64,000 nt of DNA from Gammaproteobacteria bacterium (lineage in GTDB: Bacteria > Pseudomonadota > Gammaproteobacteria > GRL18): NCBI GenBank assembly GCA_027012135.1, contig JALUZF010000162.1, forward strand, positions 1 to 64,000, read 5' to 3'. The position numbers and the translations under genes were made by a program. Within the stretch, counting starts at the first letter, position 1, and every line of letters begins with the position of its first letter. Shown here piece after piece: positions 22,983 through 28,377 of the stretch. The notes beneath the pieces are model-generated. The model made no database searches. It saw only the letters and a program-made list of their open reading frames with translations, and was not told the origin of the DNA.

Positions 22983-23996
22983 ATGAAAGTACTGGCCGGT
23001 GATATTGGCGGCACCAAAACCAACCTGGGTATTTTTGAAGTCACAGAGACTAACGGCAATAGCCAGGTTTATTCCCTTTATGAACAGACCTGGCAGAGCG
23101 GCAGCCATGCTTCCCTGGCCGCTATCCTGAACCTGTTTCTGGCTGAACCGCAAGTGCAGAAACAGGCTGCAGCCATACAATATACCTGCTTTGGTGTGGC
23201 CGGACCGGTGCAGGATAATCGCTGCCAGGTAACGAACCTGCCCTGGGCAATTGACGGGGCGCAGCTGGCTAAACAGTTCGGCTGGCAAAAAACAGCACTG
23301 CTCAATGATCTGGAAGCCAATGCCTGGGGTATAGCGGCATTAAAGCCGGATGATTTTGTTGAACTTAACCGGGGTAATAGTACACCGGGCAATGCCTCCA
23401 TCATTGCCGCCGGTACCGGCCTGGGTGAAGCCGGGCTGTTCTGGAACGGACAGCAGCATATCCCGTTTGCCTCTGAAGGCGGGCATAGCGACTTTAGTCC
23501 TGCCAGTAAAACTGAGTACCGGCTGTCTGAATTTTTACACAGAAAGTATCCTGAGCATGTCAGCTGGGAACGTATTGTTTCCGGTATGGGACTGGATAAT
23601 ATTTATCAGTTTTTATGCCATGATCAGAATGTTGAGCCGCCCAGGTGGCTGACAGAAGCCATGGACAAGGGTGATGCCGCAGCCGAAATATCTATGGCTG
23701 CACAGACAGGTAAAGATCCGCTCTGTGACCAGGCACTGAACTGGTTCTGTTATTTTTACGGGGTGGAAGCCGCTAATCAGGCCTTAAAAATCATGTCCCG
23801 CGGCGGCGTTTTTCTGGGCGGCGGTATTGCGCCAAAAATCATAAAACAGTTACAATCAGGCCGGTTTATGGAAGGTTTTACCCGTAAAGGCCGCATGAGT
23901 CATTTACTGGAAGCCATGCCGGTTAAAGTGATAATGAACGATAAAACCGCCCTGTACGGGCCAGCCCTCTATGCGGCAGGGCCATTAAGCTGTTAG
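22983..23996 (+). CDS. glk: Glucokinase
   Basis: A 337-residue ROK/hexokinase-type glucokinase that phosphorylates glucose with ATP in the cytoplasm. Phosphate-binding motif GDIGGTKTNLGI is at residues 7-18; the catalytic aspartate lies in NDLEANAWGI, followed by the sugar-binding segments AAGTGLGEAG and SEGGHSDFSP. It is followed 39 bases later by pgl, so the two enzymes feed glucose into the pentose phosphate/Entner-Doudoroff side; zwf is not in the window. Confidence 0.93.
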   Translation: MKVLAGDIGGTKTNLGIFEVTETNGNSQVYSLYEQTWQSGSHASLAAILNLFLAEPQVQKQAAAIQYTCFGVAGPVQDNRCQVTNLPWAIDGAQLAKQFGWQKTALLNDLEANAWGIAALKPDDFVELNRGNSTPGNASIIAAGTGLGEAGLFWNGQQHIPFASEGGHSDFSPASKTEYRLSEFLHRKYPEHVSWERIVSGMGLDNIYQFLCHDQNVEPPRWLTEAMDKGDAAAEISMAAQTGKDPLCDQALNWFCYFYGVEAANQALKIMSRGGVFLGGGIAPKIIKQLQSGRFMEGFTRKGRMSHLLEAMPVKVIMNDKTALYGPALYAAGPLSC

Positions 23997-24035: not shown

Positions 24036-24716
<681 letters not shown>

Positions 24717-24720
24717 AATT

Positions 24721-24762
24721 TATAACCTATAACCTATAACCTATAACCTATAACCTATAACC
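24721..24762 (+). repeat. Six tandem TATAACC heptamers directly before uvrD
   Basis: Six perfect 7-bp copies run to within three bases of the uvrD ATG, so no normal Shine-Dalgarno sequence is present. Arrays of this kind change length by slippage. Because they are outside the reading frame, a change would alter promoter or ribosome-binding spacing rather than the protein. Confidence 0.95.
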
Positions 24763-24765
24763 TAT

Positions 24766-27021
24766 ATGGACATATCCCGCATAATCGACCCCCTGAACAA
24801 AGCCCAGCGTCAGGCGGTCTGCTCAGAAGCACAAAATACCCTGGTACTGGCTGGTGCCGGCAGCGGTAAAACCCGGGTGCTGGTGCATCGTATTGCCTGG
24901 CTGGTGCAGGTAGAAAATGTTTCCCCCTATAGTATTCTGGCGGTCACCTTTACCAATAAGGCCGCCGGAGAAATGCGTTTTCGGATAGAAAACCTGCTTA
25001 AAACACCGGTACGCAATATGTGGGTAGGTACCTTTCACGGTCTGGCTCACCGTTTGTTAAGAGCCCACTGGCAGGATGCCGAACTGGTGGAAAACTTCCA
25101 GATCATAGACAGTGATGATCAACTGCGTCTGATTAAGCGGATCATGAAAGAACTGGGTATTGATGACAAACAGAACCCGCCCAGGGAAGTGCAGTGGTTT
25201 ATTAACGAAAGCAAGGACAACGGTCTGCGCTGTGAGCACATCAATGTCCGGGAACTGCATAACCGTGAATACATGCTGGAAGTCTATCAGCAGTACGAAG
25301 CCCTGTGTCAGCGTACCGGTCTGGTAGACTTTGCCGAACTGCTGCTCAGAGCACACGAGTTATGGCTGAAACAGCCCCATTTATTAAAACATTATCAGCA
25401 GCGTTTCAGTCATATTCTGGTGGACGAATTTCAGGATACCAATACCATTCAGTACGCCTGGCTGAAAGTACTCAGCGGCAATAACCTGCCTGATACCCAT
25501 CTTAATACCTTTGTGGTGGGTGATGATGATCAGTCAATTTACGGATGGCGGGGGGCAAAAATAGAACATATCCGAGAATTTGAACAGGACTTTAAGGCCG
25601 GCAGCTGTGAAACCATTCGCCTGGAACAGAACTACCGTTCCACGGGTAATATTCTGGAAGCCGCCAATGCGGTTATTGCCAATAATACCGAGCGGCTGGG
25701 CAAGGAGCTATGGACAGAAGACGGGGAAGGCGAACTATTACAGGTTTATCAGGCCTTTAATGAAATTGACGAAGCAGCCTATGTGGCCGGCCAGATAGAA
25801 AAATGGGTGGAAAAAGGCGGTAAACGCAGTGAAATTGCCATTTTATACCGCTCAAATGCCCAGTCTCAGCCGCACGAATATGAACTGGTTAAACGTGCCA
25901 TACCGTATCGGGTTTACGGCGGTCTGCGCTTTTATGAACGGGCGGAAATCAAGGATGCCCTGGCTTATCTGCGTCTGGTGGCCAACCGCCAGGATGATGC
26001 CGCGCTGGAACGGATCATCAATGTACCTACCCGCGGGATTGGTCAGCGTACCATTGAGATGATACGTACCGAAGCCGGAGCCAGAGAGCAGCACTTATGG
26101 CAGACCGCAGCAGACATGATTGCAGACAGGCAGCTGACAGCCAGAGCCGCCGGCTCCGTGCAGAAATTCCTGGATTTAATTGATGAAATGTCCGCCGCAG
26201 TGAACGATGACAGTATGAGTCTGTCAGAACAGGTAGTACACATTGTTGAAGCCTCCCGGTTAAAAGAGTTTCACGGTAAGGAAAATTCCGAACGGGCACA
26301 GGCTAAAGTGGAAAACCTGGAAGAGCTGGTTAATGCCGCCAAACGCTTTGATGATGAAGGTGATCCGTTACTTGAAGCGGTTAAGGACAGTTTTGACTTA
26401 AGTCAGGCCGATGGACTGCTGCAAGAGTCTGGTTCAATGTCACCGCTGGCGGAATTTCTGGCTCATGCTGCCCTTGAAGCCGGAGAGGGACAGGCGGAAG
26501 AATGGGAAGACTGCGTACAGTTAATGAGTCTGCACAGCGCCAAGGGACTGGAATTTGAGCTGGTGTTTTTATGCGGTATGGAACAGGGTCTGTTCCCCCA
26601 TAAAAATGCCCTGCAGGATTTTACCGGCGGCCGCCTGGAAGAAGAGCGCAGGCTTTGCTATGTAGGCATTACCCGTGCCCGTCAGCAGCTGCATCTGACC
26701 CATGCTGAAAGCCGCACCATTTACGGCAGAAGTGAACTGGCCTACCCATCCCAGTTCCTGACTGAAATCCCGGCGTCATTAATCAGCCAGGTTAGAGCCG
26801 TAAACCAGAGCCAGTCTTTTACCGCTGCCCGGAATAACTACAGCAGCCGGAGTGAAGAAAATGAAGAGGGCATCAGTATAGGCCAAAGAGTCACCCATAA
26901 AAAATTTGGTGAAGGCACGGTTATAGAAATAGAAGGCACGGGTGCAAGAGCCAGAGTACAGGTCAATTTTGACTATGAAGGCACCCGCTGGCTAATGCTG
27001 AATATTGCAAAATTAGTATAA
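24766..27021 (+). CDS. uvrD: DNA helicase II (UvrD/Rep family)
   Basis: A 751-residue superfamily 1A helicase. Motif I AGAGSGKTRVLVHRI lies at residues 29-43, motif II DEFQDTN about 222, motif III GDDDQSIYGWRGA about 249, and motif IV EQNYRS about 288. The C-terminal Tudor-like end (RVTHKKFGEGTVIEIEG) is also present. UvrD acts in mismatch and excision repair. Length is slightly more than E. coli UvrD (720). The start at MDIS fits the family; the TATAACC array sits in the place of its ribosome site. Confidence 0.94.
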   Translation: MDISRIIDPLNKAQRQAVCSEAQNTLVLAGAGSGKTRVLVHRIAWLVQVENVSPYSILAVTFTNKAAGEMRFRIENLLKTPVRNMWVGTFHGLAHRLLRAHWQDAELVENFQIIDSDDQLRLIKRIMKELGIDDKQNPPREVQWFINESKDNGLRCEHINVRELHNREYMLEVYQQYEALCQRTGLVDFAELLLRAHELWLKQPHLLKHYQQRFSHILVDEFQDTNTIQYAWLKVLSGNNLPDTHLNTFVVGDDDQSIYGWRGAKIEHIREFEQDFKAGSCETIRLEQNYRSTGNILEAANAVIANNTERLGKELWTEDGEGELLQVYQAFNEIDEAAYVAGQIEKWVEKGGKRSEIAILYRSNAQSQPHEYELVKRAIPYRVYGGLRFYERAEIKDALAYLRLVANRQDDAALERIINVPTRGIGQRTIEMIRTEAGAREQHLWQTAADMIADRQLTARAAGSVQKFLDLIDEMSAAVNDDSMSLSEQVVHIVEASRLKEFHGKENSERAQAKVENLEELVNAAKRFDDEGDPLLEAVKDSFDLSQADGLLQESGSMSPLAEFLAHAALEAGEGQAEEWEDCVQLMSLHSAKGLEFELVFLCGMEQGLFPHKNALQDFTGGRLEEERRLCYVGITRARQQLHLTHAESRTIYGRSELAYPSQFLTEIPASLISQVRAVNQSQSFTAARNNYSSRSEENEEGISIGQRVTHKKFGEGTVIEIEGTGARARVQVNFDYEGTRWLMLNIAKLV

Positions 27022-28244: not shown

Positions 28245-28377
28245 AACAGAACAGCATCAGGGCATACAGGGAGTTATGTCCTGTTGTATTCAGCAAAAAA
28301 ACAGAAATTTTTTCTAAAAAAGCAGTATTTTTTAAAAAAAATATGTATAATCTGCACTCCCATCTATACACAGATAT

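Follow-up and report, generated by a model that had tools for sequence, protein, structure and literature searches.

A heptanucleotide repeat array in the Shine-Dalgarno-free leader of uvrD and its variation among related Gammaproteobacteria

Bacterial repeats with a period of seven have been described in several contexts. As presented in two later papers (PMC4679880, PMC4692102), Mrazek (2007) reported long simple sequence repeats with an excess of heptanucleotides, for which slippage was proposed. In marine Beggiatoaceae, MacGregor (2015; PMC4679880) described direct repeats of TAACTGA next to start codons that lack a Shine-Dalgarno (SD) sequence, and suggested translational roles for them. 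Heptameric GGGAATC repeats, which are G-rich and quadruplex-forming, are found in Xanthomonas and Nostoc as dispersed intergenic arrays of 2 to 26 units near gene ends and starts (PMC4692102). Finally, hmw1A and hmw2A of Haemophilus influenzae are preceded by 7-bp units whose number varies between strains (PMC2651432). The preference for repeats of seven bases and the role of arrays at start codons have been open questions since the papers of Mrazek and MacGregor.

Here we describe an array of TATAACC units abutting the start codon of uvrD in a gammaproteobacterial genome, and follow it through related species. Its nearest published relative is the TAACTGA repeat of the Beggiatoaceae. As far as the latter is described in PMC4679880, both systems consist of heptamers just before start codons devoid of an SD sequence, the uvrD array ending 3 nt from its ATG, and both are intergenic, present many times per genome and found in Gammaproteobacteria. 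They differ in that one unit dominates in the Beggiatoaceae and most sets face start codons, whereas here the unit varies with site and lineage (it is TATAACC, not TAACTGA, at uvrD), arrays at gene ends are as common, and single arrays reach 15 units. The repeats of Mrazek (2007) have the same dominant period; that work, as described in the later papers, dealt in genome statistics, while the comparison of orthologous sites made here brings out changes in length, births and replacement of the unit. The dispersal of the arrays is like that of GGGAATC (PMC4692102), but TATAACC has no G on the sense strand. The hmw repeats resemble ours in unit length, position upstream of a gene and variable copy number; they are placed in a promoter, at a distance of about 100 bp, and effects on expression are reported for them (PMC2651432), whereas uvrD is a housekeeping repair gene and carries its array in the leader. 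When the literature was searched by unit sequence, TATAACC, CTTAACA and TTACGAC appeared in none of the 12 papers listed out of 180 matches, and searches on heptamer and uvrD repeats returned no description of heptamer unit replacement at orthologous leaders.

The uvrD leader

The window (the whole 64,000-nucleotide stretch that was analysed) belongs to a 3.9-Mb genome called G000 below. On its forward strand, uvrD (24766-27021), encoding the 751-residue DNA helicase II, was identified by profile matches, with 1093 bits against NF008743 (above the cut-off of 965) and 1037 bits against TIGR01075 (under that profile's own cut-off of 1144). It is preceded on the same strand by pgl (24036-24716), encoding 6-phosphogluconolactonase, whose stop codon is separated from the uvrD ATG by 49 nt, and, further upstream, by the glucokinase gene glk (22983-23996); a glk-pgl-uvrD operon is possible. 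Most uvrD loci of the family have a pgl match upstream. In the relative G001 (L009:3659-3990), pgl seems to miss residues ~65-175 where two tblastn pieces meet, owing either to a deletion or to an assembly error.

The 49-nt intergenic leader (24717-24765, forward strand) contains six perfect TATAACC units (24721-24762; CCTATAA when read in phase), then a partial unit, TAT (24763-24765), which closes the array up to the ATG at 24766. The original prediction had placed the six units exactly there, three bases before the ATG. TRF reports 24721-24766 with a period of 7, 6.6 copies, 100% matches and a score of 92, the highest among the 32 rows obtained for the window. With up to two mismatches allowed, TATAACCTATAACC occurs 6 times in the window against a chance mean of 0.43, a number reached in none of 100 shuffles; the array, at 6.6 copies, is thus a long simple sequence repeat of heptanucleotides, longer than chance allows. 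Genome-wide, the exact doublet TATAACCTATAACC is confined to the uvrD site (5 overlapping matches), and the reversed control has no match. Twenty-eight plasmid records match, mostly through ordinary uvrD at 60-80% identity, and none covers 80% of the query.

The absence of an SD sequence, also noted originally, was confirmed. The last 40 nt of the leader contain no G, and the duplex energy of its last 20 nt with the anti-SD is +3.6 kcal/mol, a pairing no stronger than that at any of the 269 ORF starts sampled in the genome, 99 of which carry an SD 4-mer. The accompanying claim that the array had replaced the ribosome site did not survive comparison with relatives. The gene is present in 22 of the 24 genomes of the family, with an aligned start codon (the protein begins MDIS...), and none of these 22 leaders, with or without repeats, carries an SD 4-mer at the usual positions (G022, whose uvrD start is inexactly placed, is counted among them). 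Outside the family, the aligned position holds a start codon in 45 of 62 uvrD loci, and the 4-mer is present in 4 of these 45 leaders. Since the SD is absent across the family and rare outside it, SD-free initiation of uvrD appears to be the background state.

A further property of the leader follows from the purity of the array: gain or loss of a unit leaves the final 25 bases before the ATG the same, and indeed they are identical at every copy number seen. A change in copy number shifts only the distance between the pgl stop and the uvrD ATG, in steps of 7 nt. In the four species that carry TATAACC (see below), the predicted unpaired probability of the leader is 0.56-0.62 across 4 to 9 units, compared to a median of 0.53 for 47 control ORFs. 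Predicted accessibility is thus near the control median and flat with copy number, and the idea that the leader folds into a hairpin or acts as a switch was rejected.

Heptamer arrays in the genome and at orthologous sites

Comparisons were made within the genus (6 genomes, including G000) and the family (24 genomes). All are draft assemblies, most relatives being labelled metagenome-assembled, and several long arrays stand at contig ends, so that long arrays are under-counted; in the four TATAACC species, though, the uvrD array is internal to its contig.

The uvrD array is not the singular feature that the original prediction implied, since heptamer arrays are spread over the intergenic regions of G000 and its relatives. 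An unbiased sample of G000, made up of 52 loci picked regardless of their repeat content and totalling 329,426 non-N bases, yielded 5 exact arrays with a period of 7 and 3 or more units, where shuffling gave a mean of 0.0; periods 5, 6 and 8-12 together yielded a single array, at period 6. Period 7 is thus over-represented. Arrays of 1-, 2- and 4-nt units show no excess, and those of period 3 a small one (6 vs 1.05). In G009, which belongs to another genus, 398 kb hold one exact period-7 array of at least 3 units. Doublets of CTTAACA occur in 13 of the 24 family genomes (61 overlapping matches in G000 and 179 in G005), and doublets of TTACGAC, by pattern search, in 4. Those of TATAACC also occur in 4 genomes, in three of which they are found at uvrD only; in the fourth, G005, they occupy four places, of which two are at the end of a contig.

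Loss of mismatch repair was rejected as the cause of this bias, mutS and mutL matches over the cut-off being present in 5 of the 6 genomes of the genus; the exception is G002, with an assembly completeness of 91%, where mutS is represented only by a fragment at a contig and mutL by short matches of low score. Loops of seven nucleotides are poor substrates for MutS, and the presence of mutS and mutL is fitting with the missing excess of 1-, 2- and 4-nt arrays.

Nearly all heptamer arrays in G000 and its relatives are intergenic. Counts of their position, made on fetched loci of several genomes with ORF starts called by a simple script and orthologues not collapsed, gave 46 start-side and 57 stop-side relations, with 23 arrays near neither. 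The idea that arrays lie mainly at start codons was thus rejected; they are as frequent by gene ends. With respect to the C-rich strand, the start-side relations split into 28 sense, 17 antisense and 1 undecided. A strict rule of one heptamer per lineage was likewise rejected, the clade of the window having CTTAACA, CTCAACG, CTGAACG, CCTATAA, CCTGTAA and others.

At uvrD itself, four sister species carry full TATAACC units in different numbers: 4 in G001, 5 in G002, 6 in G000 and 9 in G005; TAT-ATG follows the last full unit in all four. Counted by eye, pgl and uvrD are 42 nt apart in G001, 42 in G002, 49 in G000 and 77 in G005. Copy number is thus unstable between species, and the original prediction, for which an invariant length in relatives would have been fatal, came through on this point. 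In G003 the site is occupied by a different heptamer, TTACGAC (3.6 copies), which is degenerate in G004. In the sister genus g2, the unit is CTTAACA, with about 5 units in G020, at least 4 in G021 and 2 in G015, the remaining g2 leaders having no array. In a UvrD tree, G015 and G021 group with G007 and G020 falls in another group, so that either two or more gains of CTTAACA at uvrD or several losses of it have to be assumed. The family therefore offers a natural experiment, with orthologous leaders of 0, 4, 5, 6 and 9 units and three different heptamers before the same gene.

Two other leaders, those of ycgN and ruvA, were followed through the family because G003 and G004 (clade B) have TTACGAC there, as at uvrD. 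The ycgN gene is present in 18 of the 24 genomes. Its leader carries CCTGTAA in the clade of the window (5.3, 7.3, 7.3 and 8.3 units), TTACGAC in clade B (7.9 and 13.9 units) and CTTAACA in G007, from another genus (7.9 units); no array precedes it in the other 11. The ruvA gene is found in 20 genomes, with TTACGAC in clade B (6.4 and 5.4 units) and a CATTAAA-type heptamer in G009 (4.7 units), and no array in the other 17, including the clade of the window. All these arrays lie 4-14 nt from the ATG; the TTACGAC array stands 4 nt before ruvA in G003 (L286:3083-3127) and at the same place in G004 (L301). Beside uvrD, ruvA is a second recombination gene with a start-proximal array in this genus, numbers being too small for a claim of enrichment.

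Changes are not limited to these leaders. Between G003 and G004, copy numbers at orthologous sites differ (11.3/4.6, 7.9/13.9, 6.4/5.4, 3.7/5.4, 3.7/2.7 and 3.9/2.9), with one pair equal (5.6/5.6). Some arrays of one species correspond to a single copy of the unit in the other, and some have no counterpart. Thus, AGTCGGT is repeated 11.1 times in G004 (L304:1590-1667) and is present as a single copy in G003 (L279:1864-1873), an apparent case of birth from a single copy. CTTAACA, repeated 12.4 times in G002 (L324:2896-2982), faces CTTAATA, repeated 9.9 times, at the orthologous site of G000 (L171:72-140), where the last unit is still CTTAACA; we interpret this replacement as homogenisation of a variant unit. 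Such differences in length, births, absences and unit changes are what slippage with homogenisation would be expected to produce.

The persistence of sites beyond uvrD was sampled at six clade B arrays with an orthologous interval in G000 (ycgN, ruvA, L285/L170, L279-L304/L253, L294/L251 and the second array of L304/L253). Two of the six G000 intervals hold an array of at least 3 units, one holds 2.4 units and three hold none, compared to 4 of 227 background gaps with at least 3 units and 5 of 227 with at least 2.4. The corresponding binomial values, 0.004 and 0.0002, come from few sites and are generous because the L253 contig was fetched for another array and ycgN was picked after the G007 match. 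Across the uvrD, ycgN and ruvA leaders, the site thus recurs or persists more readily than the sequence of its unit.

Readings of the start-proximal arrays

These comparisons suggest that the uvrD array is a fast-changing repeat at a favoured site. We consider it rather probable that it is a slippage-driven heptanucleotide repeat which an SD-independent leader tolerates, in a place where arrays recur or persist. Replication slippage would have grown it in the untranslated leader, as one of many intergenic arrays in the genus. The uvrD message would be translated through an accessible, G-poor leader, probably by S1-type or leader-independent binding of the 30S subunit, and/or by ribosomes arriving from pgl directly upstream; the repeat would then serve as an adequate leader, and its growth would be tolerated. 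A unit more or less would move the pgl-uvrD distance by 7 nt, and since the initiation region is the same at all copy numbers seen, a change in UvrD, if there is one, should be slight and graded rather than on/off.

Tolerance alone poorly explains some of the observations. Arrays of different units recur at the same start-proximal spots of uvrD, ycgN and ruvA in several lineages; this recurrence, with changing units, is the interesting part of the data and the main fact that tolerance leaves over. In G020 and G021, which have only 2 and 4 array places, respectively, uvrD holds the longest CTTAACA array among those listed. In addition, the C-rich strand is somewhat oftener sense at starts (28 vs 17, orthologues not collapsed).

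It is possible, if rather unlikely, that leader length tunes uvrD in a graded manner by altering coupling with pgl, 30S loading or mRNA decay, so that the amount of UvrD would drift from one lineage or subpopulation to another. The array abuts the start codon and its length differs among all four TATAACC species, and there is a precedent for modulation of expression by heptanucleotide copy number in hmw1A/hmw2A (PMC2651432). The hmw repeats, however, are placed by that paper within a promoter, whereas no promoter is predicted beside the uvrD array; moreover, the initiation region is constant and the predicted accessibility flat over 4-9 units.

Another reading is that the arrays would be recognised by the ribosome or by a protein that binds RNA (S1, cold-shock proteins), and that selection would keep the sites at particular genes while the units change. 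Read in phase, the units at uvrD are CCTATAA (four species), CTTACGA (G003, degenerate in G004) and CTTAACA (three species of another genus); at ycgN, CCTGTAA (four species), CTTACGA (two) and CTTAACA (one); at ruvA, CTTACGA (two) and the CATTAAA-type unit (one). All are sense with respect to the C-rich strand and no more than about 15 nt from the ATG, and MacGregor proposed a like role for the TAACTGA repeats (PMC4679880). Nevertheless, the array is absent from 13 of 22 uvrD, 11 of 18 ycgN and 17 of 20 ruvA leaders, many arrays are antisense or at gene ends, and units are not strictly lineage-specific across sites in the clade of the window; we regard such maintenance as doubtful, yet keep it as a live rival to tolerance.

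We give little credence to a bolder version, in which a factor would count or bind the heptads of a maintained leader element in uvrD, ycgN and ruvA, site and 7-nt period being conserved in the family as lineages exchange the unit, and a feedback loop would link UvrD to its own repeat. This idea arises because mutation of uvrD in E. coli increases tandem-repeat contraction, by 3.3-fold as reported in PMC3477136. Were it true, the length of the uvrD array would set the level of UvrD and UvrD would limit tandem-repeat change, so that instability would be written in the repeat.

Each unit also contains TATAAC, which matches TATAAT at 5 of 6 positions, and the array could be seen as a multiplied promoter of tandem -10-like elements. 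In six g2 genomes, TATAAT occurs at 30-71 nt from the uvrD ATG and is preceded by TTGCAC/TGCACA; several of these sites stand in the context CCTATAAT, one base off CCTATAAC read across the repeats. The G020 array is downstream of the TATAAT site and upstream of the ATG, which puts it in the predicted 5' UTR. A promoter scan found no promoter at the uvrD array, the units lack the T at -7, those of other lineages are unlike -10 boxes, and the candidate -35 of the window (TTGACC) is not conserved in G001 and G002, all of which makes this reading very improbable. The original prediction was that slippage could tune UvrD levels and make mutation or recombination rates phase-variable. True on/off phase variation of uvrD, which would give reversible mutator or hyper-recombinant subpopulations, is unlikely to an extreme degree: the repeat does adjoin the start codon of a repair gene and differs in length between species, but it lies outside the coding frame, spaces neither an SD sequence nor promoter elements, and leaves the sequence from -25 to +10 independent of copy number.

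Other repeated elements

Some heptamers are part of a composite dispersed element, made of (CTTAACA)n, a conserved linker of 12-14 bp near CTCTAAGCTCTTT and (CTGAACG or CTCAACG)m. Ten copies were seen in the fetched stretches of G002, G005 and G000 (at L317, L320, L321, L323, L327, L329, L330, L331, L337 and L254). A long inverted repeat with a REP-like look, its arms being GCGCTGAGCGTTGAGAAAGAGC and GCTCTTTCTCAACGCTCAGCGC, lies between convergent genes of G000 (L255:9185-9270, contig C176), where it encloses TTGCTCT units; it has words in common with the composite element. In the window, an imperfect tandem repeat with a unit of 20-21 bp (AAAAAAGCAGAATTTTTTAA) is found at 28295-28341, directly after a dctP-like TRAP transporter gene.
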